Part shown: positions 3,912-24,135 of the stretch, one piece after another | How positions within the stretch are numbered: the stretch's first letter is position 1 | How the letters are laid out: each line of letters begins with the position of its first letter | Source: a virus | Reading direction: 5' to 3' (one strand) | Length of the DNA stretch: 49,270 nt | IMG/VR virus record: IMGVR_UViG_3300036785_000905 | Location: 1-49,270 of that record | Translations under genes and position numbers: made by a program | The notes under the pieces: generated by a model | Databases searched by the model: none | The model's input: only the letters and a program-made list of their open reading frames with translations | What the model was told of the DNA's origin: nothing

Positions 3912-3940
3912 TCTCTCTCATTTAATAGCATGTTTTTTAA
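3912..3940 (-). promoter_or_regulatory. TACATG-N3-TTAAAT-GAGA element, copy a
   Basis: On the minus strand it reads AACATG, CTA, TTAAAT, GAGA. It stands between the NUMOD4 gene and the nuclease/RNA polymerase operon, about 60 bases before the VRR-NUC start. This is the copy that would drive the phage's own RNA polymerase. Confidence 0.65.
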
Positions 3941-3953
3941 CAAAGCATATACT

Positions 3954-4457
3954 CTATGAGAATACTTCGAACTTCATCCCAAATGGAAAGATCCTTGCGC
4001 CGGTATAAGTCGACCTCCAAATGTCATCAAATAAAAGTCCTTCTGTCATACCAGCCTCAATTACTGAATCATACACAACACCTGTATCTACATTTCTAAT
4101 TTTAAGATTTCCATAATGCATTGGTTTTAAAACCTTCAATTGGCGCACATATTTCTGTGCAAACCACGGAGGACGCCACATAAGGTTCTCTGCGGCCACA
4201 TTATCCAAATTACCATCATACATAACCACTTGGGTGCAGAGGGGCGTAGGACGCTCTACAAAGGCCTCTGCGACCATTTGAGCGACGCCTCTGGTGTACC
4301 GCTCGCCATCATAGTCACAAATAAGCGAAATTTTCACATGTCCGGCGGTTGTATGGCTTACTTGCATCGTTAAATCACGATCTCGACGATAAATCTGCCC
4401 ATCTGAGCTAATTTCATAGTTAGTAAACCCTGGAATCTCTTTCCACATTAGTTTCAT
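3954..4457 (-). CDS. NUMOD4/HNH-like protein with degenerate HNH core
   Basis: The N-terminus (WKEIPGFTNYEISSDGQIYR, from residue 5) is a clear NUMOD4 motif, found in homing-type HNH endonucleases. The following region (AQMVAEAF, then VVMYDGNLDNVAAENLMW) aligns with the HNH core that normally reads NHIDGNKxNNxxENLxW. The catalytic His/Asn pair is replaced by MY, so nuclease activity is doubtful. It may be a DNA-binding remnant or a domesticated homing endonuclease. GGAAGGA lies six bases before the ATG. Length 167 aa is usual for the family. Confidence 0.7.
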   Translation of the reverse strand: MKLMWKEIPGFTNYEISSDGQIYRRDRDLTMQVSHTTAGHVKISLICDYDGERYTRGVAQMVAEAFVERPTPLCTQVVMYDGNLDNVAAENLMWRPPWFAQKYVRQLKVLKPMHYGNLKIRNVDTGVVYDSVIEAGMTEGLLFDDIWRSTYTGARIFPFGMKFEVFS

Positions 4458-4530
4458 TCAGTATCCTTCCCAAAAAGGACGTTTTTTGAAGGGTGGGGGT
4501 GTTTTTTCAACTAATTTTTCCAGAAATCAA

Positions 4531-4790
4531 TTTTTTGTCATTTTTTGTCATATTTGCACCCAAAGACTCTAAGAATTTTTTATAGGGGTTATACTCTCCT
4601 TGTGTCACATTTTGTTTTTTACCCCACCATATTAGAGAGTATAGAGGTATAAAATACATTCAGACTTCTTGACCATGGGTATTTTCGTCAGATTTGACAA
4701 ACGCGTCCCCAGCCTTTTAGCCAAATATCATAGTTGACCAGGGTTTTCACTGTTTTTCGCCGTTTGTCACATTTTGTCGTTTTTGTCATA
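4531..4790. repeat. Two clusters of TTTGTCA repeats, 10-bp phased
   Basis: The 378-base gap 4458-4835 has no ORF. It holds a perfect tandem of the 10-mer TTTTTTGTCA (4531-4540, 4541-4550). A second cluster at 4751-4790 has four related units at 10-base spacing (cores TTTTTCG, TTTGTCA, TTTGTCG, TTTGTCA). Further single units lie near 4603 and, inverted, near 4694. The helical phasing suggests binding sites for one protein on one DNA face: an origin-like iteron array or an operator for the flanking promoter. Confidence 0.55.
4579..4608 (-). promoter_or_regulatory. Host-type promoter upstream of NUMOD4 gene
   Basis: On the minus strand, GTGACA (5/6 match to TTGACA) and TATAAA (5/6 to TATAAT) are separated by 18 bases. 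It lies between the two repeat clusters, with a leader of about 115 bases before the NUMOD4 gene. The -35 box coincides with one repeat unit, so a repeat-binding protein could regulate it. Confidence 0.4.
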
Positions 4791-4835
4791 TCTGAAAGCT
4801 CCTCCAATTTTCAGGACGAAAAAACTACCTCAAAG

Positions 4836-6020
4836 TTAACTGTTTACTCTCTTTTTAACCTCATTTCGCATGAATTCTCGCTCATTAAAATTCCGTTTTT
4901 CACTCAAAGCTAACTTGATTTCTCGATCAATCTTAGAATCTGACAAAAAAATGTAGTAGTAAAGTGACGAAAATGGGGTATCCATGCGGTCAATTCGGCC
5001 CTGAGCTTGTTCAAAATTCTTATACGAATACGTCAAAGAAAAGAGCACCATTGCGTCCGTTTCAGTACAATTCCACGCTTCTGCGCCCGCAATGTACTGT
5101 ACCAGATACAACCAACGGTCTCCCAAAGGAACGGGGTCTTTTTTATGCCCATTCCACTCAAAAATCGGTATTTCAGAGCCCAAACTTCGTAACAAAGCCA
5201 ACTCATAATCGAAATTGTAAAAAACCACAAGTTTGGGATGAAATCCCATAAGAAATCGCATCTCATCCAAGCGAGAAGGATCACTGTTCACCACCTTCCG
5301 CATAAGCCGAAACATTTCCGCCGCATCCTTGATCGGCTTGTGATCATACGGATTCCATCGACGTTTGTAGACGTCTCGAAACATTGGAATGTCATAAGAT
5401 ACCGGTACATAATTCAAATACCTCGTTGTATGCTTCAAGTACGGCATCTCCACCAAAATGTCATTACGAAGTAGTTCAAGCTTTCTTTCATTTAAATATG
5501 CTCGCACCTTCGGGAACTTTGTGTATGGTTCGTACAAGACATGCTCGAACTTGAAACGAGTGATGTTCTTATAGAACCCGTTCGCAATGAAAACGGGGAC
5601 ATAATCCAACCAAGTATCACCTGGCGTCGCCGTCAGCATAACCCAAGAATTTTCTTTAGCGATCTTGATGAATGACTTGACCCAGGAACCGGTTCCCACT
5701 AACCTTTGTTCATCGAAAATAAAGAAGGCATTCTTAACTTGAGTGTATCGGCCGATATTATTCCAAGAATCAACCATCAAAACCCCGGTATAATCGCCTA
5801 GACGCTCTGTGCCGATGCAAAAAGCCGCCGCTTCTTTCTGCCAATCCAAACTATCACGTTTCTTAGCGGTGGTAATAACGTATATGTCTTTAGGACGCTC
5901 TTCCTTCATATAATAGGCCAAGACAGTAGCAGATTTACCACTTCCTACCCCACCATAAAGAATTTTACCACTGCCTAACTGATCAGCGGCCTTTTGCTGA
6001 TGTTCCATTAAATCTGGCAT
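4836..6020 (-). CDS. SF2 (DEAD/SNF2-like) DNA helicase
   Basis: ATP-dependent helicase or translocase for phage replication. Walker A GGVGSGKS is at 23-30, Walker B-like FIFDEQR at 101-106 (DEQR in place of DEAD), motif III TATPGD at 130-135 and motif VI QAQGRIDRMD at 338-347. The 394-residue length fits the short phage helicases that contain only the two RecA-like domains. It precedes the repeat-rich region and the nuclease operon, matching the common phage trio of helicase, VRR-NUC and RecB-like nuclease. Confidence 0.85.
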   Translation of the reverse strand: MPDLMEHQQKAADQLGSGKILYGGVGSGKSATVLAYYMKEERPKDIYVITTAKKRDSLDWQKEAAAFCIGTERLGDYTGVLMVDSWNNIGRYTQVKNAFFIFDEQRLVGTGSWVKSFIKIAKENSWVMLTATPGDTWLDYVPVFIANGFYKNITRFKFEHVLYEPYTKFPKVRAYLNERKLELLRNDILVEMPYLKHTTRYLNYVPVSYDIPMFRDVYKRRWNPYDHKPIKDAAEMFRLMRKVVNSDPSRLDEMRFLMGFHPKLVVFYNFDYELALLRSLGSEIPIFEWNGHKKDPVPLGDRWLYLVQYIAGAEAWNCTETDAMVLFSLTYSYKNFEQAQGRIDRMDTPFSSLYYYIFLSDSKIDREIKLALSEKRNFNEREFMRNEVKKRVNS

Positions 6021-6048
6021 GAGCGCACCTCCTTTATTAAAATTTTAT

Positions 6049-6237
6049 TTATTCCTCATCAAAACGCTGGGCGATGTCTTGAAATTTCTCTTCAACCACA
6101 TCTTTTTCTAAAAGGTCATAAATTTCCCAGGTTATACACTCAAGCTCAGAAAGTCTTCTATAAATAAAGTATTGATGACATATAACACCTACAGCAGCTG
6201 CACCAACTATCCCCAAACCAATGTTTACACCAGTCAC
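6049..6237 (-). CDS. Small membrane protein (62 aa)
   Basis: The GTG at 6237 overlaps the TGA of the upstream gene as GTGA, a typical coupled start, and is preferred over the TTG 51 bases upstream. One N-terminal transmembrane helix (GLGIVGAAAVGVICHQYF) is followed by a charged helical tail rich in Glu and Asp. Function unknown. Confidence 0.6.
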   Translation of the reverse strand: MTGVNIGLGIVGAAAVGVICHQYFIYRRLSELECITWEIYDLLEKDVVEEKFQDIAQRFDEE

Positions 6238-6404
6238 AAAATAACTACTCCAAGAATCAGACCAATTCCTGCGGAAACTTCGCCCCAACCAAGATATACT
6301 TCATTAGTAGTAGCATTATTGGTCAAGGCAAGAACACCCAACACAATAGCTCCTACTCCAGCTAAAACAATTAAGATTGCTCGTAACGTGATTGTCCTGA
6401 CCAT
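6234..6404 (-). CDS. Small two-helix membrane protein (56 aa)
   Basis: The ATG is preceded by a perfect AGGAGG six bases upstream. The product has two hydrophobic segments (about 7-27 and 44-56) separated by a short polar turn. It overlaps the upstream gene by 34 bases and the downstream gene by four. It could be holin-like, but there is no lysis gene next to it. Function unknown. Confidence 0.65.
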   Translation of the reverse strand: MVRTITLRAILIVLAGVGAIVLGVLALTNNATTNEVYLGWGEVSAGIGLILGVVIL

Positions 6405-6583
6405 GATTTTCCTCCTGTTTCTTTAGGCCTTGTGCCTGGTTGTTCTAAATCTGAGCATGTACATACATTAGTTTGTAATGATCCTCTAATTACATGATGG
6501 TGGTGTGGTCTGAGAGTCGGATTTTCACATTTAACTACGTCACATTCATCCGGCCATCTACTATCTTTTCCAACATGGCTCAC
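6371..6583 (-). CDS. Cys/His-rich hypothetical protein (70 aa)
   Basis: GTG start with AAGGAG six bases upstream; the TTG one codon earlier lies too close to the SD. It contains Cys/His clusters (ECDVVKC, LRPHHHHV, NVCTC) that could bind a metal. No family recognised. The end overlaps the following membrane protein gene. Confidence 0.5.
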   Translation of the reverse strand: MSHVGKDSRWPDECDVVKCENPTLRPHHHHVIRGSLQTNVCTCSDLEQPGTRPKETGGKSWSGQSRYEQS

Positions 6584-6629
6584 CAAAGGCTCCTTTTGAA
6601 ATAATGGGGGTATATGTCAACAAAAAAAA

Positions 6630-6869
6630 TTAAAGCATGTTTTGTTTTCGTCGATGGAACAATCTGTATCGCCATCCACTAGTCTCGAAGTCCATATATT
6701 CTTTCATAAGACGTACATAAGAGTTTATCCGTCCATTAGATTTAATTAATTCACTCACTTCTTCTTCGGTTAGAAAAGATCTACTTTGAAGTCTTTGAAA
6801 AATATAATCTGAACGTAAGGTTTCATCTTCTAATTTGCTCAGATACCAATAAATATATTTGGCTTTCAA
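6630..6869 (-). CDS. Hypothetical protein (79 aa)
   Basis: Basic, Tyr-rich, probably helical protein beginning at TTG, after GGAAGAGAGGGG. No recognisable domain. It is the first gene downstream of the structured RNA at 6910-7059, so that RNA may be its leader. Confidence 0.55.
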   Translation of the reverse strand: MKAKYIYWYLSKLEDETLRSDYIFQRLQSRSFLTEEEVSELIKSNGRINSYVRLMKEYMDFETSGWRYRLFHRRKQNML

Positions 6870-6909
6870 TTCCCCTCTCTTCCTAACCGATTAGACCTAT
6901 AAACACACA

Positions 6910-7059
6910 GATGGACAATGATGAGTTAGCCTTGCAGCGCCTAGCAGCCTCTGAGGCACGTGTGAGTCCCCACGACTAACACTGGCACCCTCTCTGGGGC
7001 AACGGCTCAACGTGTACACGATTTAACGAGTTTTGCCGGTGTCCTCATCATTATCCATC
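6910..7059 (-). ncRNA. Candidate structured RNA with three-way junction
   Basis: The 150-base ORF-free segment is closed by a 16-base inverted repeat (6910-6925 with 7044-7059, one mismatch). Directly inside are two further helices: GTTAG with CTAAC (about 6924-6980), and a nine-pair helix ACACTGGCA with TGCCGGTGT (about 6979-7043). The inner arms contain smaller hairpins, including GCCT/AGGC and the palindrome CGTGTACACG. Both orientations fold; the minus strand is assumed because all genes lie there. It starts eight bases after a stop codon and ends 40 bases before the next start. It could be a free small RNA or a cis-acting leader. No known RNA family is recognised. Confidence 0.55.
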
Positions 7060-7066
7060 TCTGCCT

Positions 7067-7243
7067 TCATTTGTCTATAATCCGTAACAAAAGCATTGCT
7101 TCTTCAAAATCCCTATGCTCCTTATTATTAAAACCCAAATTCCTTCGCAGCCAAAAAGTATCCCCAATTCTTCCTGCGGGGACATCCATGGTCTGCAAAA
7201 TTTCACGCAAACGACGTAATGCTCTTACTTGTTCACTATTCAC
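7067..7243 (-). CDS. Small hypothetical protein (58 aa)
   Basis: GTG start overlapping the upstream TGA as GTGA, which strongly supports it. Charged, probably all-helical product rich in Arg and Leu (begins VNSEQVRALRRLREIL), with no membrane segment. Function unknown. Confidence 0.6.
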   Translation of the reverse strand: MNSEQVRALRRLREILQTMDVPAGRIGDTFWLRRNLGFNNKEHRDFEEAMLLLRIIDK

Positions 7244-7437
7244 TTTCTACTCCAATCTACATCAAGATACAATGGAATCGTCGGCCCTTTTACCATAGGA
7301 TGGGCAATTCTCCACTCTTGTGCTTCCTCAACTGTGGCAAATGGACCGAAATATAGCGGTACCTGCTCTATACGATGATGTATGATCATGAAACCCGCTG
7401 CTACAGCGTCGCTATGCTTCACAACAACATGCTTCAT
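7240..7437 (-). CDS. Small hypothetical protein (65 aa)
   Basis: The ATG at 7437 is chosen because GAAAGG lies eight bases upstream; the ORF opens three codons earlier at GTG. It contains YFGPFATVEEAQEW, a phrase common in short alpha/beta phage proteins. No function assigned. Confidence 0.55.
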   Translation of the reverse strand: MKHVVVKHSDAVAAGFMIIHHRIEQVPLYFGPFATVEEAQEWRIAHPMVKGPTIPLYLDVDWSRK

Positions 7438-7446
7438 CAAGAGCAC

Positions 7447-7753
7447 CTTTCAATAAGAATCCGGTTTGGGCTAGCTAGACCCTTAGGCACACGGGGAACC
7501 GGTACTCCCGTGCCAGTGATGCTTATCCCTACGCCAATGGCCCACCACTGGGTATTAAACCATTAACATTCGAAACGGTTTGCACGAGAGCTATCTAATA
7601 GAGGTGCAATCTCCATAGAAGGCATATTCAATCACATGGGTGCACCGGAGAAAGGGTAACCAGTGTTTAAATATGTTTTTCGCTCACCGTTTAACGGGTA
7701 CGTCCCGACCAAAGTCGAGACCGCTCTGAGCCTAAACCCCTATTTAATGTCGC
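7447..7753 (-). other. 307-base ORF-free, hairpin-dense intergenic region
   Basis: No convincing ORF on either strand. Many inverted repeats follow one another: GGCAC...GTGCC and CCAGTG...CACTGG (about 7487-7551), AAACC...GGTTT and TTGCAC...GTGCAA (about 7558-7610), CCGTTTAACGG (about 7697-7707), and CTGAGC...GCTCAG (about 7726-7758) beside the next gene's stop. The density suggests a structured RNA or long leader for the 7240-7437 gene. No known class recognised. Confidence 0.4.
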
Positions 7754-7969
7754 TCAGACGACAAGGCCTTCAACTTTGAAAAATATAGGCTCATAAATCC
7801 AATTGTCTCCCTGTCTAACCAAACGGATTCTTTCTTTAGTTATGGCATCGGTCCATGAGATTTTCCAAATAGTCAAGTCGGTTTCCGCCGCTTCCATTGC
7901 CATTTTTATTGATGGATAGAAGTTAAGACCACCGTCTTCACTACGACTTTGGATAAATGCTGTACTCAT
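7754..7969 (-). CDS. Hypothetical protein (71 aa)
   Basis: Starts in an ATGA overlap with the upstream gene. Alternating hydrophobic strands (DLTIWKISWTDA, IYEPIFFKVEG) suggest a small beta-rich fold. No domain recognised. Confidence 0.6.
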   Translation of the reverse strand: MSTAFIQSRSEDGGLNFYPSIKMAMEAAETDLTIWKISWTDAITKERIRLVRQGDNWIYEPIFFKVEGLVV

Positions 7970-8358
7970 TCAGCAATCCCCTCACATGATCGTCGAAATG
8001 TTTTTAGTTCCGGATCAAACCGATACCAGCATATAAAGGCCTCAGTGGCCCCTAAAATGGCGTCTGTGGGCTTATCATCAACAGACGTTGGTCTATGACA
8101 GTGGGTACAAGTTCCGCCATCCATAGTCGCTTCCATTAATCGAAGCAAAGCACTCCAAGGAGTCATACCACCAGCCGCATCCCAATGCTCAGGCACTAAA
8201 CCTTCTTGATAAGGCCAATGGGCTGCCGCCATCCAAATGGTCGGTTCTTCCTCCTCACAATACCGAATTTGAAATTCATCAGACCCAGTTCGACCAAGCA
8301 TTTCAATAGCAGCTTTAAATTTATCTTCAATTATTTGTGCTTCTGGGTCTTTTGACAC
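7966..8358 (-). CDS. Conserved phage protein with CxxCH motif (130 aa)
   Basis: Contains TCTHCHRPTSVDD near residue 85, a likely zinc-binding hairpin, followed by CWYRFDPELKTFRRSC. I recognise this combination from hypothetical proteins of actinobacterial phages; the function is unknown. GTG start in a TAGTG overlap with the upstream stop. Confidence 0.65.
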   Translation of the reverse strand: MSKDPEAQIIEDKFKAAIEMLGRTGSDEFQIRYCEEEEPTIWMAAAHWPYQEGLVPEHWDAAGGMTPWSALLRLMEATMDGGTCTHCHRPTSVDDKPTDAILGATEAFICWYRFDPELKTFRRSCEGIAE

Positions 8359-8735
8359 TAATATTCCCCCCGCATGAGTTGGCTGATACGATTACGGATA
8401 GGCTCTGAGTGCTCAGGATTCGATCCTAAGGCCCATACAAGCTCTTCTGCCACCCTCACGCAAAGCTCTGCTACCAAACGATCAGTTAGACGCATAGCAT
8501 GCTCAGAATCGAAAACTCCTCGAGGAGTATCCGTCCAACACATGCTAGCTTCTCCAATCCATTCCCCAGCCATTTCACGAAGTGATCGAAAAGTACTATC
8601 ATACTCAACTGTCATGGCATCACCCGACAATTCCGCTGCCATGGGTTCAGTTTCATCTACTACGTGTCTTCTTGGTGTAGTATTAGTAGTACGAACTCGG
8701 CTTGGAAACTCACCTCTATTTTCAGGAGCAATCAT
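8358..8735 (-). CDS. Hypothetical protein (125 aa)
   Basis: The ATG at 8735 (MIAPENRGEF) is preferred: AGGA lies eight bases upstream and the upstream RHH gene stops two bases before it. The longer reading opens ten codons earlier at TTG without a clear SD. Mostly helical with a Trp-rich middle. No family recognised. Confidence 0.55.
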   Translation of the reverse strand: MIAPENRGEFPSRVRTTNTTPRRHVVDETEPMAAELSGDAMTVEYDSTFRSLREMAGEWIGEASMCWTDTPRGVFDSEHAMRLTDRLVAELCVRVAEELVWALGSNPEHSEPIRNRISQLMRGEY

Positions 8736-8736
8736 T

Positions 8737-8910
8737 TTAAATATCCTCGTTTTCCCATTCCTCAAGGTATTTGGATAAAATTTTTTCCATCAGTAAAGCT
8801 CTACTAATATCACGGCGATCTGCTTCTGCATCAATTCTGTCCCACAAAACAACGGGGAGTCTTACCGCAGTATTTTTTCGCTCAATCTGTCTTCGTGGTC
8901 TTCCCACCAT
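8737..8910 (-). CDS. Ribbon-helix-helix-like DNA-binding protein (57 aa)
   Basis: Basic N-terminus (MVGRPRRQIERKN) followed by a strand TAVRLPVVLW and two helices (DRIDAEADRRD, SRALLMEKILSKYLEEW), the layout of Arc/CopG-type dimeric repressors. AGGTGA lies upstream of the ATG. The start overlaps the preceding gene by 29 bases. This is the clearest small DNA-binding regulator candidate in the window; its operator is unknown. Confidence 0.6.
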   Translation of the reverse strand: MVGRPRRQIERKNTAVRLPVVLWDRIDAEADRRDISRALLMEKILSKYLEEWENEDI

Positions 8911-9127
8911 TTATCACCTTACTTTTATTTGCTAAGTTCTTCTCTCTCCACTCATGTGCTTTACGTTCATTTTCTTGTCGTAACCTCTTTTTATTTTCCA
9001 ATTGCTTTTCCAATTTTCGAAGCGGGGGAAGTAAAAAGACATTTGCTGCAGCATTTACAAAAATATAACCGACATACAAAATTGTGGCATCTTTTAATGT
9101 CAGTTCTCTTATTGGTTTATTGAACAT
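8882..9127 (-). CDS. Membrane-anchored coiled-coil protein (81 aa)
   Basis: One transmembrane helix (ILYVGYIFVNAAANVFLL, about 16-33) followed by a long Lys/Glu/Arg coiled coil (KLEKQLENKKRLRQENERK). The start overlaps the end of the upstream gene. It could be a spanin-like or membrane-scaffold protein, but nothing specific supports this. Confidence 0.6.
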   Translation of the reverse strand: MFNKPIRELTLKDATILYVGYIFVNAAANVFLLPPLRKLEKQLENKKRLRQENERKAHEWREKNLANKSKVINGGKTTKTD

Positions 9128-9566
9128 TATCTTTTCTCTTTGCTTTCTTATTAGAAAATTTCATGATACCTATTGAATCATTATCCGGTGTGAGATATGG
9201 ATCTCGTAAAATTTTATAGAGTTTTTTCGAAACACTTCCTCGTGCGAGTGGATGCGGATCAAATACTATACATACTCTTTTTCTAGTTACGAGATCGTCT
9301 TCAATTCTTGGAACTAAATTTGAAATAAGATCACATGCATGAATTGCTTCGACTTTTGGTATTATCACATATGCTCGCCGATAATACAGTTCTCCTCGTT
9401 CATAATTCATACCAATCGGACCTCCTTGGCAAGAATAAAATGTCTGAATATTATTCTTCCAAAGGAGTTTACAAATTGGCAATACGTGAGTATCAATGTT
9501 GACTTTATACTTTGAATCTATTTTGGTTGGATGTGAAATATACCAAACCTCAGATTTTCTAGGCAT
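9117..9566 (-). CDS. Conserved hypothetical phage protein (149 aa)
   Basis: Contains a WKNNIQTFYSCQGG segment (about 36-49), as in a phage family in which an aromatic and Cys-Gln-Gly-Gly motif is conserved, of unknown function. The remainder alternates strands and helices. The C-terminus is strongly basic. No catalytic assignment is justified. Confidence 0.6.
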   Translation of the reverse strand: MPRKSEVWYISHPTKIDSKYKVNIDTHVLPICKLLWKNNIQTFYSCQGGPIGMNYERGELYYRRAYVIIPKVEAIHACDLISNLVPRIEDDLVTRKRVCIVFDPHPLARGSVSKKLYKILRDPYLTPDNDSIGIMKFSNKKAKRKDNVQ

Positions 9567-9585
9567 TCATGCTCCTTTTATCACT

Positions 9586-9732
9586 TTATTTTGTTGATAA
9601 CTGTGTACCGCAATGCCAGCAATGATACGTTAAATGTCCTCCTTGACTAAGTACTCCAAGAAGAAACCCGATGAACAAACAAGTTATTCCTGAAATATAA
9701 ATTAATTTATGTCTAATTAAATGTTGTTTCAT
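9586..9732 (-). CDS. Tiny membrane protein with CxxC tail (48 aa)
   Basis: ATG preceded by GAAGGA. One transmembrane helix (LIYISGITCLFIGFLLGVL) and then a short tail with HCWHCG, a possible metal site. Confidence 0.55.
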   Translation of the reverse strand: MKQHLIRHKLIYISGITCLFIGFLLGVLSQGGHLTYHCWHCGTQLSTK

Positions 9733-9758
9733 CTATCCTTCTCTACTATGTCTAAGCT

Positions 9759-9938: not shown

Positions 9939-9959
9939 ACCTACTCGATCCCTTTCTAT

Positions 9960-17581: not shown

Positions 17582-18424
17582 TTAATCCTCAGACCTAAAA
17601 CGTCTAACATGATCCTCTGAATGCTTTAGATGCTTTTCTTCATTAGGATCAGTTGATTTTTCATGTTCGAGCCCAAGAACTTCAATCGAATAGAATCCTC
17701 GATCACGTAAAATTTCATATTCGGCTTCTCTCGTATCGTTTCTTACATGAAAGACATTTGGATCATCACAACCATGTCCAAATTTCAGAGGTCCAACAAC
17801 TACTTCATAGTTATAGACAGGTGAATCATCTTCGTCAGTCATAACGTTGTCACCTTCATAATAGGTCAACGTTACCTGAATATAGCCCTTTTCTTCCGCA
17901 TAAAACTCGTCTCTGTGCAGAATATATGGAGCATCTTCTGTTCTTTTTGCCACTTCTTCATCATAATCCCATGGGTCCACAGAAGGACCCGCAAATACAT
18001 GATGTACAACATTTTCGTCTTTATGTGGTCGAGGAGGTATAGGTTCATCCACTCTAACAACTGCTCCCGTGGTATCTTCATTTGGTACTGGCCGAATTGA
18101 CACTGTTATATCCTCGTCTGGAGTAACCAAACCCTTAATTTCCTCATCGAACTCTGCTCTACTTCCAGCCAGTGTTCCAGGAGGTGATCCAACCGGCGGC
18201 ATCATGTCCGGCGTAATACCATGTGCCTTTCTAAGTGCTTCAATATCAAATTCTTGATTTTCTTTAACCATCCGATTGTATTCACCCGCCGGAATACGCT
18301 TTCTTAGATTAAGTTTTCCTTTTTTATCACGAATTTGATATCCTGCAACGACACCCACTGTAAATCCAACAAATATAAAAACTAGTGGAGCCCATTTTGA
18401 TGTTGTAACGTTCTTAATTTCCAT
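17582..18424 (-). CDS. Membrane-anchored conserved phage protein (280 aa)
   Basis: One N-terminal transmembrane helix (LVFIFVGFTVGVVAGYQI, about 14-31), a disordered Pro/Asp-rich middle and a C-terminal conserved block YIQVTLTYYEGDNVM...YNYEVVVGPLKFGHG...DPNVFHVRN. I recognise this block from hypothetical proteins of phages with the same neighbours. It probably works with the DUF6353-type membrane proteins next to it. Confidence 0.65.
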   Translation of the reverse strand: MEIKNVTTSKWAPLVFIFVGFTVGVVAGYQIRDKKGKLNLRKRIPAGEYNRMVKENQEFDIEALRKAHGITPDMMPPVGSPPGTLAGSRAEFDEEIKGLVTPDEDITVSIRPVPNEDTTGAVVRVDEPIPPRPHKDENVVHHVFAGPSVDPWDYDEEVAKRTEDAPYILHRDEFYAEEKGYIQVTLTYYEGDNVMTDEDDSPVYNYEVVVGPLKFGHGCDDPNVFHVRNDTREAEYEILRDRGFYSIEVLGLEHEKSTDPNEEKHLKHSEDHVRRFRSED

Positions 18425-18427
18425 TAT

Positions 18428-19306
18428 TTATTCTCCAATCAATTCAAAAACGACTCCATCAACGTTGAAGTCTAGAAGAATGCTGCGCTCAAGGCCGTTA
18501 ACAAACCGGTTACTTGAGAGTTCAAATATACCAAAATCAATGTAACCATCACCATCACCATTCAAAACCCAACCAACAACGGCTCCAGCTGATGATCGTT
18601 CCATGCCAAGAGCATCATAAACGTCATTCAAAAGCACATGCCCTCTAGCTTTTAGCATGTCATTGGCGTATCTTTCTTGATGCTGAAGAAACATTCTATT
18701 TATTTCAGGATCTTTCTGCCAATTTACACATGTCTCATCAAAGAATCGAGCATATATGGAATAACTGTTCCCGGAATACTTCGCTGTGGTCTTTTTTCCA
18801 GCCACTTCAATTTCCTTGGTGTGAATATCGTGGAAAAGTTCAAACTCTCTCTCTTCTCCAACTTCTTTTCTGACTACCTCTCGATATTCATTATATGCTT
18901 TTGTCACGGCAGCAAGAGTAATACTAAGTGCCGCGTTTCGACGAGTCAACTGAACATGCGACCCAGCAAGTGAGGCAATAGATACTCCACCGACAGCAGT
19001 TGCTGGTCCATACAATTGAATAAGCTTTATTACGCTTTTCCCATAAACGTAAGCCAAATCTTTAATATACTCTTGGTGATTATACTTGTCTTTATCAATC
19101 CGAGAATGCATATCCTTGACGGTTTCAAAATCATTCTTGATCTCATCAAGAACCTTCTCCAATTTCAATGTAGCTCGACAAGCGAGCACCGTACTTGTGA
19201 TGGTCCCAATAACCCCAAGAGAAAAGAAAATATGCGGGGAATTAGCTTTAGTTTGCAAAACAGATCGACTGAGACTACGAGTTATGATTCCGGTATCAAG
19301 TTTCAT
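18428..19306 (-). CDS. DUF6353-like membrane protein (292 aa), paralogue 1
   Basis: Two hydrophobic segments (about 28-43 SLGVIGTITSTVLACR and 98-125), a helical connector and a C-terminal conserved region LLNDVYDALGMERSSAGAVVGWV with a FGIFELS strand. This is the pattern of the phage family DUF6353 as I recall it. Function unknown. A shorter paralogue is at 20736-21497. Confidence 0.65.
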   Translation of the reverse strand: MKLDTGIITRSLSRSVLQTKANSPHIFFSLGVIGTITSTVLACRATLKLEKVLDEIKNDFETVKDMHSRIDKDKYNHQEYIKDLAYVYGKSVIKLIQLYGPATAVGGVSIASLAGSHVQLTRRNAALSITLAAVTKAYNEYREVVRKEVGEEREFELFHDIHTKEIEVAGKKTTAKYSGNSYSIYARFFDETCVNWQKDPEINRMFLQHQERYANDMLKARGHVLLNDVYDALGMERSSAGAVVGWVLNGDGDGYIDFGIFELSSNRFVNGLERSILLDFNVDGVVFELIGE

Positions 19307-19315
19307 ATGTTATCC

Positions 19316-19969
19316 TTATTTAATAGGTTCCGCTGCAGGAAGACTCAACAAAAATCCTTCTCGAATTTGTTGAATTGGCACATCTCCTAAATATATCCAT
19401 CCCCAATTATTATCTACAAACGTTGTTTCCAATCCAGCCAGAGATTTCAAATCTGCTACAGAAGCAACCTCATATGAATCAATAATGTCATTCATGCGCT
19501 CGAGAATATGCAGAGCTTCTTCTCTAGTCGCAATAATTAATTCCTCCCCCGGTGGTTTCTGAGCATGAAGAACTCTGTTTGATGCTGGCACCCTTCCTCG
19601 AGGCGGATTTGTTTCTCTGTCTCGATAATTAGCATATTCAGTACGACGAACTGGAGTACTGTACGTTACTCGTGATGAAGCGCCAATATCTCGTCGACGG
19701 ATAGCAGATTCTCCATACATCAAACGCTCAATACCTTTACTTGCTACATCCGTAATGGTATTTTTGGCAGCTGGAACAAGAACCTCATAAATTATGTAAT
19801 TAGTCACACTTCTAAAATCTGCCTCCACAAATATGTCTCGGAACTTGGCTCCAACACCTTTTCTTTTAACCACAACTTCATTAACAACAACTTTTTCAAC
19901 TTCTTTTTTTGGTGGCGCTTCTTTTTCTTCTTTACTTTTTCTGGAATTACCTTGATAATCCATTACCAT
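19316..19969 (-). CDS. Conserved phage protein with basic N-terminus (217 aa)
   Basis: Lys/Glu-rich disordered start, a VLVPAAKNTITDVASKGIERLMYG helix pattern, an Arg-rich middle and a C-terminal domain with FVDNNWGWIYLGDVPIQ and a final FLLSLPAAEP. This family occurs in phages of Gram-positive bacteria next to the DUF6353-like and chaperone-like genes. Function unknown. Confidence 0.6.
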   Translation of the reverse strand: MVMDYQGNSRKSKEEKEAPPKKEVEKVVVNEVVVKRKGVGAKFRDIFVEADFRSVTNYIIYEVLVPAAKNTITDVASKGIERLMYGESAIRRRDIGASSRVTYSTPVRRTEYANYRDRETNPPRGRVPASNRVLHAQKPPGEELIIATREEALHILERMNDIIDSYEVASVADLKSLAGLETTFVDNNWGWIYLGDVPIQQIREGFLLSLPAAEPIK

Positions 19970-19978
19970 AATTAGTCC

Positions 19979-20434
19979 TTATGTATTGAGGGATTGAGAA
20001 GGCGACTCACTTGTTGCTGCTTGAATAGAGCCTGCTGAAGTAATTGATGCCGCCGCAGCCTCAATATCTCCACGAAACTCTCGAGGAAGAACTCCATTCA
20101 AGAATATAACTGCTGCTTGATCATTTGTAGCCAATTCCATGAACAATTCGGCATAAGCAGCTGTCTGAGAGAATTCTTCTCGAAGTTTATCGCTTTTGAT
20201 GAATCGCTTTCCATCATCAGATTTGATACCATATGCCATCAAGACGATTTCCTTGAATTTGGCAATGATTTCCTTATTATTTCTTGATTCGACAATAGAT
20301 TGCAGCATTTGACCGAATCCTTGTGTATATCCAACCTCTAGCTCAATCAATTCTGGCTTAGAAAGATTGAAATAAAAAATCTCGGTAACTTCTTCACCAT
20401 TGAAATCTTCGTACTTGATCTCTCGCTTAAGCAT
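19979..20434 (-). CDS. Conserved phage protein, KREIKYEDF family (151 aa)
   Basis: The ATG at 20434 is chosen because AAAAGGA lies just upstream and a terminator stem sits at 20457-20501; the longer ORF would read through that terminator. Boxes EIKYEDFNGEEVTEIFYFNLSK, GKRFIKSDKLREEFSQTAAY and FMELATNDQAA match a widespread family in siphoviruses. Some members resemble tail-assembly or regulatory chaperones, but the role is not settled. Confidence 0.65.
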   Translation of the reverse strand: MLKREIKYEDFNGEEVTEIFYFNLSKPELIELEVGYTQGFGQMLQSIVESRNNKEIIAKFKEIVLMAYGIKSDDGKRFIKSDKLREEFSQTAAYAELFMELATNDQAAVIFLNGVLPREFRGDIEAAAASITSAGSIQAATSESPSQSLNT

Positions 20435-20456
20435 CTTTTTTCCTTTTCGATTGAGG

Positions 20457-20501
20457 TTGAAAAAAAAGTCAGGCCGCTTATTTCTAAACGATCTGACTTT
20501 T
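20457..20501 (-). terminator. Rho-independent terminator
   Basis: AAAAGTCAG pairs perfectly with CTGACTTTT across a loop of about 20 bases and runs into a T tract of eight. It follows the 55-aa gene and precedes the next SD, so it would limit readthrough from promoter copy d into the replication operon. Confidence 0.8.
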
Positions 20502-20507
20502 AGAAAG

Positions 20508-20675
20508 TTATTCCGAAGGAACACTCTCAATGGCTGCAAATTGCTCACTGAAAACGTTGTCATACACCTTTGCCACGGCGACTTGCGTGAAATAGCTGGC
20601 TAATCCACCAGCTATACTGCACACAACAACCTTGGTTACCGGGTTTACAACGACTTTTCCAACAATTGCCAACAT
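20508..20675 (-). CDS. Small membrane-associated protein (55 aa)
   Basis: AAGGAG lies eight bases before the ATG. Val/Ala-rich product (LAIVGKVVVNPVTKVVVCSI) with a weakly hydrophobic helix. It sits alone between promoter copy d and a strong terminator, a complete one-gene transcription unit. Confidence 0.65.
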   Translation of the reverse strand: MLAIVGKVVVNPVTKVVVCSIAGGLASYFTQVAVAKVYDNVFSEQFAAIESVPSE

Positions 20676-20702
20676 TTTAATTTCTCCTTAAAATATAACT
20701 TC

Positions 20703-20731
20703 TCTCATCTAACAACGTGTATTTTTTGTGA
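20703..20731 (-). promoter_or_regulatory. TACATG-N3-TTAAAT-GAGA element, copy d
   Basis: Reads TACACG, TTG, TTAGAT, GAGA, with CACAAAAAA upstream; about 28 bases before the 55-aa gene. TTATATTTT follows directly but without a hairpin. Confidence 0.65.
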
Positions 20732-20735
20732 GAGA

Positions 20736-21497
20736 CTACATTAATGCTAATGGTTTGACGTAATTGTAATCGAAGGCCAAACATGGCTCTCCGTCCTTGG
20801 ATATAACTGTAGAAAATTCCAAAGAAAGGAGCCTATCAGAACTCCAGCCAAGATTAGATGATACAGATGTATTAGATAAACCAATTAGATCGTAAAACTC
20901 TTCGAGTGCCACATAACATTCATGCACAATTCTTGCGTTGATTTCATTTTCAGCCTTACGAAGACGATCCATATTGCTTCTGAAATATCGTCCCGTGTAC
21001 AATTCACAACACAAGACATGTTCACCATCAATTATGATGACTTCTTTCGATGTGCTTGGATTCTCTAATACTTTATCTTGTGCAATCTGATCAACTATTT
21101 TCTGAGATTTTCCTTTGCCAAGTTCTTCAACCACACGTTCTTTGTACTCAGAAAAAGCCTTTTCGGTCAGAGAATATGCAACAACTGCAGCTGCAGTTCT
21201 ATTTCCACTGGCTTTATTAGATCCGATGATACACGCAATGGTAACTGCACCGCTAATTCCTGCTGGAATATAATTCTTCCAAACTAGAGCGAAACGTTCT
21301 TTAAATTGTCCTTCCTCTTCTGAAATATAACCATTGTTTTCCTCCATCTCAGTAATTTCTCGTTGAGATTTAAAGGATGCTCTGGCAGTCAAATATGTCG
21401 TGACAATAACTCCGGCTACACCAAATGCAGTTAGAATTTCCGGAGAATTGCTTTTAACCGTTTTACTTAGATTATTGAAGAAATCTGATAAAGCCAC
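20736..21497 (-). CDS. DUF6353-like membrane protein (253 aa), paralogue 2
   Basis: Same architecture as the 18428-19306 product: hydrophobic segment at about 21-38 (LTAFGVAGVIVTTYLTAR), a second at about 77-95 (IPAGISGAVTIACIIGS), a helical linker and a C-terminal EFYDLIGLSNTSVSSNLGW region. The shared order indicates duplication and divergence. Function unknown; membrane location inferred. Confidence 0.65.
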   Translation of the reverse strand: MALSDFFNNLSKTVKSNSPEILTAFGVAGVIVTTYLTARASFKSQREITEMEENNGYISEEEGQFKERFALVWKNYIPAGISGAVTIACIIGSNKASGNRTAAAVVAYSLTEKAFSEYKERVVEELGKGKSQKIVDQIAQDKVLENPSTSKEVIIIDGEHVLCCELYTGRYFRSNMDRLRKAENEINARIVHECYVALEEFYDLIGLSNTSVSSNLGWSSDRLLSLEFSTVISKDGEPCLAFDYNYVKPLALM

Positions 21498-21517
21498 CTA
21501 GTATCAGTTCCTCTCTG

Positions 21518-21766
21518 TTATGCTGGTACCTTAATAAGTTGCATACCGGGATTTGCTTTGTTTATCAAAATTCCATTAACTACGTCAGCAATCGAATCAA
21601 CAGAAGCTTCCAAATTACCAACTGTTCGATTCAATGTATTAATTTGTGCGCTATGGCCACGAACTTTAAACAAAAGCCCAATCATTATACCAAGAGCGAT
21701 TGGTGGACCAAGTCGAATTACAACTTGCTTCTTCTCTTCAAATTTATTAGTACTATTATTTTCCAT
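21518..21766 (-). CDS. Membrane protein with coiled-coil tail (82 aa)
   Basis: AAAGGG before the ATG. One transmembrane helix (LGPPIALGIMIGLLF) followed by a heptad-like helix (INTLNRTVGNLEASVDSIAD). No family recognised. Confidence 0.6.
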   Translation of the reverse strand: MENNSTNKFEEKKQVVIRLGPPIALGIMIGLLFKVRGHSAQINTLNRTVGNLEASVDSIADVVNGILINKANPGMQLIKVPA

Positions 21767-21783
21767 GATTCCCTTTCAATTGA

Positions 21784-21945
21784 TTAACTATTTTTGATTT
21801 CTCTGATGATGATCCAGATGAGCCACAAACCTGCTGTGAAAAACGTCATAAAACAATCAAGGATGAAATTCCAAAATCCATACCTCCTTTGCTTTACAAC
21901 CATGTATTCCGGAGTTTGTCCGTAGTAAATCCTGGTTTTACTCAT
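21784..21945 (-). CDS. Small membrane protein (53 aa)
   Basis: The ATG overlaps the stop of the upstream gene (ATGAGTAA), with AGGA seven bases upstream. One long C-terminal hydrophobic segment (FILDCFMTFFTAGLWLIWII). Basic loop before the helix. Confidence 0.6.
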   Translation of the reverse strand: MSKTRIYYGQTPEYMVVKQRRYGFWNFILDCFMTFFTAGLWLIWIIIREIKNS

Positions 21946-22099
21946 AAACTATTCCTACGCCATCAGACTTCATGTAAACAGGCATCACTCGTCCACGAGT
22001 GAGAAGCATTGCCGCTACAAAAACTCCGAGGGTAAGTCCAACTCCGACTCCATTATAGAAATCTTGGTTTTCACTTATACTTTGTCTGATTGGTTTCAT
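21938..22099 (-). CDS. Small membrane protein (53 aa)
   Basis: ATG 22099 is preferred over the upstream TTG at 22123; GAGGAG lies 12 bases upstream. One transmembrane helix (GVGVGLTLGVFVAAMLL). It follows the long structured leader driven by promoter copy e. Confidence 0.55.
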   Translation of the reverse strand: MKPIRQSISENQDFYNGVGVGLTLGVFVAAMLLTRGRVMPVYMKSDGVGIVYE

Positions 22100-22146
22100 T
22101 TTATTTCTTTTCTCCTCTTCCAAAAGCTACATCATAAAAATATAAT

Positions 22147-22254
22147 GAGAAGTCTAGGGTTCATAGCCCATCTAAAACTATGATTTAGCGGTAATGCTCC
22201 CGCACCAGACGGGTAGGTCTTTCACCTACACATTAGTGTCTCGTCTTACTTCTC
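22147..22254 (-). ncRNA. Structured leader RNA with tRNA-like hairpin set
   Basis: ORF-free segment downstream of promoter copy e. A terminal helix GAGAAG/CTTCTC encloses four hairpins: AGACG...GTAGGT/ACCTAC...CGTCT, GCGG/CCGC, CTAAA with a seven-base loop and TTTAG, and GGG with a seven-base loop and CCC. It is followed by ATTATATTTTT. The last three hairpins plus GTCTGG/CCTAGAC outline a cloverleaf, but position 33 is C, the T-stem has only three pairs and no CCA is present. It is probably a cis-acting leader or a tRNA mimic. Confidence 0.45.
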
Positions 22255-22279
22255 ATTTAACACCATGTATTTTTTGCGA
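22251..22279 (-). promoter_or_regulatory. TACATG-N3-TTAAAT-GAGA element, copy e
   Basis: Reads CGCAAAAAA, TACATG, GTG, TTAAAT, GAGA: the copy closest to the consensus. Leader of about 150 bases before the 53-aa membrane protein. Confidence 0.75.
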
Positions 22280-22333
22280 TTTCACAATGACGTAAAAAAT
22301 TGAGAAGCAGTGTTAGTCGACCCCCATTGGGCA

Positions 22334-22558
22334 TCACTTTCCCGCTCGTGAAACGACAACCTTACGGAATGTATCGAGAAGCACATAGGCACAAACACCA
22401 AGAATGGCATTCCTACCCGCTCGATTGAAAACCTTCTCGATAAGAACGACTTTGTCTTCGAAATTCTGAATATTCGATCGGCCCCCATTACCTCCGGGTC
22501 CATACTGACCTCGATCCTTGCGGTTGAGCCGAACTGAAATTTCACGATCTTCTAACAC
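22334..22558 (-). CDS. Small protein with C-terminal membrane segment (74 aa)
   Basis: GTG start with GAAAGG seven bases upstream. Basic, Gly-rich first half (LNRKDRGQYGPGGNGG) and a hydrophobic C-terminal helix (NAILGVCAYVLLDTF). The overlapping 87-aa frame at 22282-22545 has no SD and is rejected. Confidence 0.55.
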   Translation of the reverse strand: MLEDREISVRLNRKDRGQYGPGGNGGRSNIQNFEDKVVLIEKVFNRAGRNAILGVCAYVLLDTFRKVVVSRAGK

Positions 22559-22595
22559 TTTAGTCCTTTCAATGGATTAAATAAAAAAATATAAC

Positions 22596-22633
22596 GAGAA
22601 GTCTGTACATATAGTACACATTGTAACCTTCTC
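22596..22633 (-). other. Leader hairpin with T-tract, copy f
   Basis: GAGAAG/CTTCTC closes a 38-base stem-loop containing TGTAC-TATAT-GTACA. It is followed by GTTATATTTTTTT. Same terminal helix as leader e with an entirely different interior, which argues for selection on the helix. Confidence 0.55.
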
Positions 22634-22657
22634 ATCTAACACCATGTATTTCTTGCG
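22629..22657 (-). promoter_or_regulatory. TACATG-N3-TTAAAT-GAGA element, copy f
   Basis: Reads CGCAAGAAA, TACATG, GTG, TTAGAT, GAGA. About 72 bases before the 74-aa gene. The T-run of the preceding terminator abuts its upstream edge. Confidence 0.75.
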
Positions 22658-22701
22658 AAAAAAAACTAAGACCGTGCAATATTAGTTGCAAGATCTTAGT
22701 T
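22657..22701 (-). terminator. Rho-independent terminator
   Basis: ACTAAGATC pairs with GTCTTAGT (one bulge) and is followed by an eight-base T run. It ends the one-gene unit 22708-22893. Confidence 0.75.
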
Positions 22702-22707
22702 TCAGTA

Positions 22708-22893
22708 CTACTTTCCGGTGAAATTACCGTACTCCTCCATCAGGCCTTTCGACTCAATGAATGCGTTTGCGTCCTGAAGCGCTGAGCGACTGATGGTCGT
22801 GCAGATAGCTGCCGTACCAATAATCGCAATAGCGACTCGGTGCTTCGAAACGAAATTCACTGGTGCCTTAGCGACCTTCTTGAATTTGTCCAT
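22708..22893 (-). CDS. Small membrane protein (61 aa)
   Basis: AAGGAG before the ATG. Basic start (MDKFKKVAKAPVNFVSKHR), one transmembrane helix (VAIAIIGTAAICTTI), polar end. Isolated between promoter copy g and a terminator. Confidence 0.65.
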   Translation of the reverse strand: MDKFKKVAKAPVNFVSKHRVAIAIIGTAAICTTISRSALQDANAFIESKGLMEEYGNFTGK

Positions 22894-22917
22894 GATTTCT
22901 CCTTAAATAGGTAGTTT

Positions 22918-22943
22918 CCATTTAAGGACATGTAATTTTTGCG
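22918..22943 (-). promoter_or_regulatory. TACATG-N3-TTAAAT-GAGA element, copy g
   Basis: Reads CGCAAAAAT, TACATG, TCC, TTAAAT, GGAA; the GAGA block is degenerate here. About 26 bases before the 61-aa gene. Confidence 0.65.
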
Positions 22944-22945
22944 AG

Positions 22946-22980
22946 GAAAAAACCTAAGCCCTTGTAGGGGGCTTAGGCCT
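22946..22980 (-). terminator. Rho-independent terminator
   Basis: CCTAAGCCC pairs perfectly with GGGCTTAGG around a seven-base loop, then TTTTTT. It directly follows the stop of the 58-aa gene and abuts promoter copy g. Confidence 0.85.
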
Positions 22981-22987
22981 TTGATTG

Positions 22988-23164
22988 CTAGTCATTTACG
23001 TTTACAAATGCCTTCGTCTCTGGGTCGAAGAAGCGAACGTTGTACGTCTCGTCATCAATCAACACGACATATCCCTCCGATGTACGGAGAAAGATGTCAG
23101 GGTTGATCTTGATCGCGAGGGCGTACAGATTTGTCCGTGCCTTCAACTTCAAGTTCTGAAACAT
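22988..23164 (-). CDS. Small soluble protein (58 aa)
   Basis: ATG 23164 (MFQNLKLKARTNLY) is chosen because AAAGGAG precedes it; upstream codons would run through the promoter. Beta-rich pattern (EGYVVLIDDETYNVRFFDPET). Function unknown. One-gene transcription unit. Confidence 0.65.
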   Translation of the reverse strand: MFQNLKLKARTNLYALAIKINPDIFLRTSEGYVVLIDDETYNVRFFDPETKAFVNVND

Positions 23165-23183
23165 TAGTTTCTCCTTTACTAGT

Positions 23184-23213
23184 TCTCTCATTATAATGCA
23201 TGTAAATCTTGCG
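23184..23213 (-). promoter_or_regulatory. TACATG-N3-TATAAT-GAGA element, copy h
   Basis: Reads CGCAAGATT, TACATG, CAT, TATAAT, GAGA; here the second box is a perfect TATAAT. About 22 bases before the 58-aa gene. Confidence 0.7.
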
Positions 23214-23243
23214 GAAAAATTAAGGCCATGTTTCGACCTTAAT
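23212..23243 (-). terminator. Rho-independent terminator
   Basis: ATTAAGGTC pairs with GGCCTTAAT (one G-T) and runs into TTTTT. It ends the 23251-23490 unit and abuts promoter copy h. Confidence 0.75.
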
Positions 23244-23250
23244 CTTTGAT

Positions 23251-23490
23251 TCACCCTTCTCTGGTAACAATGTCCCAAAATTTTGCATTGGCGACACTTT
23301 TCTCGAGGGCAGCGTCAATGGCCGTCAACTTCTCGAAGTATGTCTTCCACGCAGAAATCATAACTGCTCTTTCTTCAGCCAACTCGGCTTCGAATTTTGC
23401 ATTCGATTTCTGAATGATCTTCACACTTACAAAGGTGACGGCCGCAACGGCTCCTCCAACAAGAATCGCTTTTGCTGCAATTCCAAACAT
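23251..23490 (-). CDS. Membrane protein with helical tail (79 aa)
   Basis: AAGGAG before the ATG. N-terminal transmembrane helix (AILVGGAVAAVTFVSVKII) and a long amphipathic helix rich in Ala, Glu and Lys. One-gene transcription unit. Confidence 0.65.
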   Translation of the reverse strand: MFGIAAKAILVGGAVAAVTFVSVKIIQKSNAKFEAELAEERAVMISAWKTYFEKLTAIDAALEKSVANAKFWDIVTREG

Positions 23491-23508
23491 TAGTTCTCCT
23501 TAGATAGT

Positions 23509-23541
23509 TTCTCTCATTATAATCCATGTAAAATATACAGA
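23509..23541 (-). promoter_or_regulatory. TACATG-N3-TATAAT-GAGA element, copy i
   Basis: Reads TACATG, GAT, TATAAT, GAGA. The upstream CGCAA block is replaced by TGTATAT. About 22 bases before the 79-aa gene. Confidence 0.65.
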
Positions 23542-23577
23542 AATGGCTCAGAACGTAAAATAAGCCCCTCTGAGCCG
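23539..23577 (-). terminator. Probable terminator stem
   Basis: GGCTCAGA pairs with TCTGAGCC, then ATTTCT. Weaker T run than its neighbours. There is no ORF immediately upstream, so it would end a non-coding transcript. Confidence 0.5.
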
Positions 23578-23772
23578 ATTTAGGCCGTTTTTACAAATCT
23601 AGGGTAGATTATACCATTATTTTTATTTTAGAGGCTTAGAACGAATCCTAGAAGGGGTTTTTTACAAAAAGTTCTAAGAAAATTCCCCCGGGGTATTTTT
23701 TCCCAGAAAAAAATAATAATCCATGTAAAAATTGTGAAGACCATGTAAATCTTCTTCAAACTTACATGGTCC
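23578..23772 (-). other. Non-coding segment with promoter-like element j and hairpins
   Basis: About 195 bases without an ORF. On the minus strand it begins with a perfect 10-base inverted repeat GACCATGTAA/TTACATGGTC (23739-23771). A degenerate element follows, TACATG, GAT, TATTAT, T-run (about 23712-23735), and then CTTAGAAC...GTTCTAAG and AATCTA/TAGATT stems. With the terminator at 23539 it could form a small non-coding transcript. Confidence 0.4.
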
Positions 23773-23805
23773 CCACAATCATCGACTACAAATGGTAATC
23801 CCTTT

Positions 23806-24090
23806 CTATCTCGGTCTGATTATTTGACTCAAGCCTTTCGAGGTGATCACATGTTTCTGCTCATATGCAATAATCAGAATTATTCCCAACAAATTTCCGC
23901 CAATGAGGGCCAATGTATCGAGGTTGATTTGACTCCGATTCTTCGTCTTTATGTCGTTCAACTTCTCCAAATGACCTATCATTATTGGATATCGTTCATC
24001 CATTACTCCAATTGTCTCCATTTGATCCAGAACTGATGCGATTTCTCTCTCAATCGACTCGTTTCCTTGATCTCTCGATAAATATCCCAT
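23806..24090 (-). CDS. Conserved phage membrane protein (94 aa)
   Basis: Recognisable widespread family: ERYPIMIGHLEKLNDIKT, then LDTLALIGGNLLGIILIIAYEQKHVITSKGL, with one transmembrane helix and a conserved ending. Found across phages and elements of Gram-positive bacteria; function unknown. GAAAGGA before the ATG. Driven by promoter copy k. Confidence 0.7.
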   Translation of the reverse strand: MGYLSRDQGNESIEREIASVLDQMETIGVMDERYPIMIGHLEKLNDIKTKNRSQINLDTLALIGGNLLGIILIIAYEQKHVITSKGLSQIIRPR

Positions 24091-24106
24091 GATTTCCTTT
24101 CTGTAG

Positions 24107-24135
24107 TTCTCATATAAGGCCGTGTATAACTTGTT
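24107..24135 (-). promoter_or_regulatory. TACATG-N3-TTATAT-GAGA element, copy k
   Basis: Reads TACACG, GCC, TTATAT, GAGA. About 20 bases before the 94-aa gene, with its upstream edge on the stop codon of the preceding gene. It marks the boundary between the structural operon and the small-gene cassettes. Confidence 0.6.

Follow-up and report, generated by a model that had tools for sequence, protein, structure and literature searches.

Ten one-way elements ahead of putative early genes in an uncultured virus are candidate promoters for the phage's own YonO-like RNA polymerase

The 49,270-base record of an uncultured virus, IMG/VR record IMGVR_UViG_3300036785_000905 (its whole length is called the window here), carries essentially every gene on the minus strand and, on that same strand, ten copies of a short bipartite element, raising the question of whether these copies are promoters and which RNA polymerase would read them. 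A sequence-only reading of the window had described each copy as TACATG or a variant of it, three bases, an A/T-rich hexamer and GAGA, and had suggested that a phage-specific polymerase or activator might use them as promoters. Our analysis supported this proposal. The best explanation, which we consider likely, is that the elements are promoters of the phage's two-barrel, YonO-like RNA polymerase (313-2994, minus strand), serving the early genes and the polymerase's own operon.

Each of the ten sites was present on the gene strand with the layout described, GGAA replacing GAGA only at 22934. The reported positions held, except that the copy placed near 23198 starts at 23204. Counted along the minus strand, element 1 (24108-24136; TACACG box starting at 24126; AAACA-agtta-TACACG-gcc-TTATAT-GAGA) lies 21 nt before the open reading frame (ORF) 23806-24090, element 2 (23512-23540; box at 23530; CTGTA-tattt-TACATG-gat-TATAAT-GAGA) before ORF 23251-23490, element 3 (23186-23214; box at 23204; CCGCA-agatt-TACATG-cat-TATAAT-GAGA) before ORF 22988-23164, and element 4 (22916-22944; box at 22934; TCGCA-aaaat-TACATG-tcc-TTAAAT-GGAA) before ORF 22708-22893. 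Element 5 (22630-22658; box at 22648; TCGCA-agaaa-TACATG-gtg-TTAGAT-GAGA) precedes ORF 22334-22558 with a leader hairpin (GAGAAG...CTTCTC), element 6 (22251-22279; box at 22269; TCGCA-aaaaa-TACATG-gtg-TTAAAT-GAGA) lies 155 nt before ORF 21938-22099, and element 7 (20703-20731; box at 20721; TCACA-aaaaa-TACACG-ttg-TTAGAT-GAGA) precedes ORF 20508-20675. Farther along stand element 8 (11220-11248; box at 11238; TCATA-tcaaa-TACATG-gta-TTAAAT-GAGA), before ORF 10721-11140, and element 9 (10406-10434; box at 10424; CCACA-aaaaa-TACATG-tgc-TTAAAT-GAGA), before the short ORFs 10244-10345 and 10050-10232 with a terminator-like hairpin between. The weakest copy, element 10 (3916-3944; AACATG box at 3934; TTTGT-taaaa-AACATG-cta-TTAAAT-GAGA), lies 65 nt before the operon that encodes a VRR-Nuc endonuclease, an exonuclease and the polymerase. 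The upstream box, previously read as CGCAA about nine bases away, is real, its actual form being (T)CGCA, separated from TACATG by exactly five bases; six of the ten sites have it intact or with one mismatch.

Every element is followed by a ribosome-binding site and a start codon, 21-155 nt downstream. By our gene calls all ten are intergenic, apart from a 2-nt overlap of one copy with a start codon, even though intergenic sequence makes up only 13% of window positions 1-25585. The strict pattern had no plus-strand match in the window, and the structural operon held no credible copy, the latter as previously noted. Small early genes are often preceded by an element directly behind a terminator-like hairpin. 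Between an element and its gene, hairpins with U-rich tails also occur at 22630-22590, 11228-11204 and 10392-10374 (minus strand), and these look like terminators or 5' stabilising leaders.

To guard against circularity, a position-weight matrix was built from eight other phages with the window left out. Nine of the ten sites took ranks 1-9 among all sense positions of the window (15.2-29.2 bits), compared with 5.9 for the best antisense position and 16.3 for the best single score over 50 dinucleotide shuffles; the site at 3934 scored 7.1, under a few weak chance matches, three of them in a repetitive tail-fibre gene. A matrix from three phages (RosaAsantewaa, Rainydai and Petito) placed seven sense and no antisense sites of the window above 10 bits. 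Equal matching inside genes or on the other strand, which would have spoken against promoters, did not occur: the ten elements were all intergenic and on the sense strand.

The repeat is shared with cultured phages. Streptomyces phages RosaAsantewaa and Rainydai and Gordonia phage Petito carry the full element of about 33 bp, TCGCA-N5-TACANG-N3-TATAAT-GAGACCCC, for which the window has the hexamer form TTAAAT. It is a single piece with fixed spacing, composed of the TCGCA box, an A/T-rich 5-mer, the TACANG box, a 3-bp spacer, the TATAAT-like hexamer and GAGACCCC. With the three-phage matrix, sense and antisense counts were 6/0 in RosaAsantewaa, 11/0 in Petito, 10/0 in Rainydai, 7/0 in Curtobacterium phage Pippin15, 15/0 in Rhodococcus phage ReqiPepy6 and 6/0 in Arthrobacter phage Mudcat; Streptomyces phage Rima (12/0) and Microbacterium phage DizzyRudy (9/0) behaved alike. 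Phages of these six host genera carry 4-15 copies per genome, in one orientation, ahead of the same early-gene block. Over 538 collected sites, the information content was confined to the element and fell to near zero in the flanks, the TACA, hexamer and GAGA columns being partly fixed by the search pattern and the TCGCA and CCCC columns being free; the hexamer was TATAAT at 383 of these sites.

The actinophage matrix scored nothing in more distant relatives infecting Lactococcus and Faecalibacterium, and unbiased repeat finding in their early regions recovered the same architecture and spacing. Lactococcus phage 1706 has at least nine copies of CGCATGTTT-TACATA-TAC-TATAGT-AGAA, Lactococcus phage P092 eight copies of TACATA-CCC-TATAAT-GA, Faecalibacterium phage oengus 11-12 copies of CGCGAAAAA-TACAGC-CTC-CTTTAT-GGA, and an IMG/VR relative three copies of CGCGGCAAA-ATCATA-GGC-TATAAT-AGAA. 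The spacing is constant across phages with hosts in Actinomycetota, Bacilli and Clostridia. In IMG/VR, a 23-base exact pattern matched at least 120 stretches, and the contigs picked by the motif held 4-14 copies each, on the polymerase strand except for single weak matches; the strict window-type pattern matched nothing there, and the TTAAAT hexamer is a local variant. Scanning 84,980 genomes of bacteria and archaea for the motif returned no match, a result of little weight since a 30-mer from SPbeta, used as the positive control, was likewise missed. The window itself holds, on one strand and in order, the core genes of the 1706-like/Rimavirus-Bingvirus-Scapunavirus lineage (capsid-protease fusion, primase-polymerase, helicase, VRR-Nuc, exonuclease, polymerase and phrog_4303), and the motif is a hallmark of this whole lineage.

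Position, direction and a meltable hexamer make it very likely that the elements are promoters. In ReqiPepy6, the hexamer of one copy ends at position 14400 of the stretch L030 and a tRNA-Ala gene begins 8 nt behind it, at 14409, so that transcription must start within 8 nt of the hexamer. In this gene and in two P092 copies that precede tRNA-like sequences, the leader, counted from base 3 behind the hexamer, is able to pair with the 3' trailer; this suggests that transcripts begin at the conserved G or no more than 3 nt away from it. Scanning in general for hairpins starting at that G gave only a weak excess, and finer placement accordingly stays an inference. The P092 copies belong to two units (20085-20180 and 20473-20568 of L031), 98% identical and each composed of an element, a tRNA-like sequence and a terminator; their leader GAGAAGAA is able to pair with a TTCTTC trailer, and ARAGORN made no tRNA call in the tRNA-like sequences of either unit.

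Features of a host promoter were sought in the same sites. Among 54 actinophage sites, a TTGACA-like box at 16-18 bp occurred once, compared with nine times at a control spacing, in agreement with the earlier remark that such a box is missing, and no TG was seen at the position of an extended -10 motif. Hexamer position 2, where a -10 box recognised by sigma needs its key A, is A in two of ten window sites, two of six RosaAsantewaa sites and none of 11 oengus sites, though several other relatives have A there at nearly every site; position 6 is T at every site. A sigma-70 scan of window positions 6000-25500 found matches at chance level only. As judged from these features, the element does not look like a standard host promoter.

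A candidate reader is encoded at 313-2994 on the minus strand. Its 893-aa product belongs to phrog_4291 ("RNA-dependent RNA polymerase"), has helix-turn-helix (HTH) matches near both ends and carries SGADFDGDTV at residue 506, in which the DFDGD stretch agrees with the DxDxD motif of two-barrel polymerases and the three aspartates are invariant in 79 homologues. Its counterparts of about 900 aa in related phages are annotated mostly as "HTH protein", hypothetical protein or "RdRp"/"RNA-dependent RNA polymerase". The window protein matches the PHROG family of YonO (phrog_8308, E = 2.7e-5), and the homologue of phage 1706 matches Pfam RdRP weakly, slightly below the cut-off. A first structure model from 10 sequences was poor (pLDDT 57); the AlphaFold2 model rebuilt from 79 sequences (pLDDT 77.8, pTM 0.62) matched QDE-1 in the PDB (E = 1.1e-8, probability 1.00), as well as P74-26 gp62, P23-45 gp64 and RDR2, with low global TM-scores of 0.2-0.4. 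A sequence search of the PDB with the polymerase profile gave HTH-like or repeat matches only. Based on the DFDGD motif, the YonO PHROG match and the fold matches to QDE-1, P74-26 and P23-45, the product is very probably a two-barrel single-chain RNA polymerase, with predicted DNA-dependent activity. In a six-frame search, four relatives (G001, G002, G005 and G009) showed one TAG each in the aligned polymerase-frame stretch. No second polymerase motif was present in the window ORFs or the tape measure, and no sigma factor or other known regulator was recognised among 20 further window proteins.

The 1706 homologue, orf75, carries the label "structural protein" in its original deposit, and the 1706 entry is referred to as such in the ReqiPepy6 record. 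If that label stems from virion proteomics, the polymerase would arrive together with the DNA and could read the early genes immediately; we give delivery in the virion an even chance.

Motif and polymerase travel together. The earlier suggestion of a phage-specific polymerase gained plausibility from a two-barrel RNA polymerase being encoded in every informative relative tested, and phrog_4291 was found in 23 of the 24 motif-picked IMG/VR contigs of at least 42 kb, the remaining contig stopping before the polymerase region, with its DNA polymerase 0.3 kb from the contig end. Across 50,697 phage records, the motif was counted 55 times for Gordonia, 54 for Streptomyces, 92 for Arthrobacter, 12 for "Siphovirus contig89", 4 for Rhodococcus and 4 for Microbacterium, and the polymerase 55, 54, 95, 12, 4 and 4 times, the tallies being compared by genus rather than accession by accession and the diverged Lactococcus and Curtobacterium forms of the motif being only partly caught. 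We rejected this co-occurrence as proof for the polymerase, given that the DNA polymerase, the capsid protein and phrog_4303 co-occur with the motif equally. Since co-occurrence is common to the whole core set, the case for the polymerase rests on its function, fold, virion annotation and the non-sigma architecture of the element; the elements are probably read by the phage polymerase, and we infer a polymerase, rather than an activator, as the reader.

In the proposed mechanism, the polymerase would bind the TCGCA and TACANG boxes, perhaps through one of its two HTH domains, melt the T/A-rich hexamer and begin transcription no more than 8 nt behind it, probably at the conserved G or up to 3 nt from it. 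Carried in the virion, it could enter with the DNA and transcribe the early genes at once without host sigma factors. The elements sit before the early genes, the replication block and the polymerase operon, early status being assigned to the downstream genes from their place and type. Each small early gene would form its own transcription unit, and the element ahead of the operon would let the polymerase drive its own synthesis in a positive feedback. A weaker element is found 50-82 nt before this operon in all nine phages examined, namely the window and eight annotated relatives. More speculatively, once the genome ends are joined, read-through from the operon element might reach the structural genes, which would fit the late role of YonO in SPbeta.

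Several observations weigh against assigning the elements to the phage polymerase. They stand before early genes, whereas YonO reads late genes in SPbeta (PMC5467207); a direct profile comparison of the window polymerase with YonO was not significant; the presence of the enzyme in the virion has one database annotation as its whole basis; the tallies of DNA polymerase, capsid-protease and phrog_4303 are nearly identical to that of the motif; and the TATAAT hexamer of most actinophages is perhaps usable by the host polymerase. Host polymerase with its main sigma factor might thus read the hexamer (TATAAT at 383 of 538 sites), with a phage activator, possibly virion-borne, acting on TCGCA and TACANG in place of a -35 box and the YonO-like enzyme serving other (late) genes, as the role of YonO in SPbeta would allow. 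We consider this arrangement unlikely, although host polymerase often reads early phage genes and the joint occurrence of the core genes leaves room for an unrecognised activator: most window sites and all oengus sites lack A at hexamer position 2, the spacing stays the same in phages whose hosts belong to different phyla, the GAGACCCC that follows the hexamer is conserved, none of the 20 further window proteins was recognised as an activator, and one homologue of the polymerase carries a virion-protein annotation.

The TATAAT hexamer of many relatives would also suit pure host sigma-A promoters, extended or lacking a -35 box, that need no phage factor. With a -35 box at one of 54 sites, no TG at the extended -10 position and a motif limited to one phage lineage despite the many other phages on shared hosts, this is very improbable. 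Slightly less probable still is that the elements are not promoters at all and serve as operators, as replication or packaging signals, or are mobile or duplicated repeats. The small, clustered early genes and the two 117-nt near-identical units of P092 would fit such a role, but the strict strand, the position before start codons, the tRNA gene 8 nt behind one copy, the lack of dyad symmetry in the core and the conservation of the element, not of its flanks, across phages argue for promoters. Promoters read by the phage polymerase thus remain our preferred explanation. A bolder version, to which we give somewhat less than even credence, holds that hundreds of phages of Gram-positive hosts carry a stand-alone YonO-like polymerase in the virion together with a host-independent one-piece promoter of T7-like geometry, with boxes at about -25 and -15, a melting hexamer at -6 to -1 and a start at the conserved G; that the TACA core and the spacing are preserved between Actinomycetota and Bacillota phages; and that this is the first promoter family for the phrog_4291 branch.

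The polymerase operon begins with the phrog_93 endonuclease at the VRR-Nuc position (3534-3854, minus strand; the assignment draws partly on synteny), followed by the phrog_3953 exonuclease (3032-3583, minus strand) and the polymerase. Directly behind the polymerase lies a 77-aa phrog_4303 protein (80-313, minus strand), a member of a family that directly follows the polymerase in each relative tested (six scanned) and is found in 250 phage records, equal to the polymerase count; it is a possible partner of the polymerase, maybe at initiation. An HNH endonuclease with a NUMOD4 motif (3954-4457, minus strand) is located just upstream of the operon element, where relatives also have an HNH gene. 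The window further encodes two DUF6353 (phrog_2152) proteins (18428-19306 and 20736-21497, minus strand), of which oengus has three.

If correct, our interpretation predicts early transcription independent of host sigma and supplies about 250 named phages with a candidate promoter that is defined and portable, possibly one half of a new orthogonal polymerase-promoter pair. It also bears on initiation by the simplest relatives of cellular RNA polymerase. A literature search found no published description of this element, although an earlier mention in older papers is possible, and the repeats probably constitute a promoter family belonging to a branch of phage polymerases for which no promoters had been defined. 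Microbacterium cluster EC/EI phages are described as having multiple asymmetric motifs of unknown role, all pointing one way, in narrow gaps between genes and 21-30 bp ahead of start codons (PMC7302621). Those motifs differ in sequence (TAGaCTATaGGTgTaAgC), and the EC/EI phages encode a sigma factor. The virion polymerase of coliphage N4 has a T7-like fold and uses hairpin promoters. It is injected with the DNA and reads early genes from dedicated promoters (PMC4496689). Injection of an early-gene polymerase would be the likeness to our system, where virion delivery is presumed, and fold and promoter type are the differences. The crAss-like phage phi14:2 reportedly has in gp66 a stand-alone virion two-barrel polymerase for early genes; it served as a working model here, differing in the much larger protein and the Bacteroidota hosts.

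In Bacillus phage SPbeta, YonO transcribes one late operon from a promoter whose sequence was left undefined, and the same study left open which promoter YonO-like polymerases recognise and whether helper factors are needed (PMC5467207). The window enzyme would share with YonO the single-chain two-barrel class, on the evidence of the DxDGD motif, the PHROG cross-match and the predicted function; YonO is much diverged, and here many elements before early genes take the place of one late operon. In the SPbeta yonN-yonK gap, the minus-strand sequence TTACATACCCTCGTAAAATAAG (20152-20123 of L037, SPbeta 60152-60123; stretch TTACATACCCT) bears an unverified resemblance to the P092 element TTTTACATACCCTATAATGAG. 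This gap should hold the YonO late promoter, and the published start site (2225998 in B. subtilis 168) could not be placed there. Thermus phage P23-45 has a virion RNA polymerase (gp96) and a non-virion one (gp64), and its two-barrel virion enzyme reads pre-early genes from repeated AT-rich promoters (PMC10770324). Its promoter motif was not recovered from the P23-45 stretch examined. In P23-45 the virion enzyme forms one protein with the tape measure; in the window the polymerase has a gene of its own, and no polymerase motif is seen in the tape measure. With two-barrel phage polymerases, repeated motifs before (pre-)early genes and a fold match to gp64 in common, P23-45 appears to be the nearest working model for the system proposed here.

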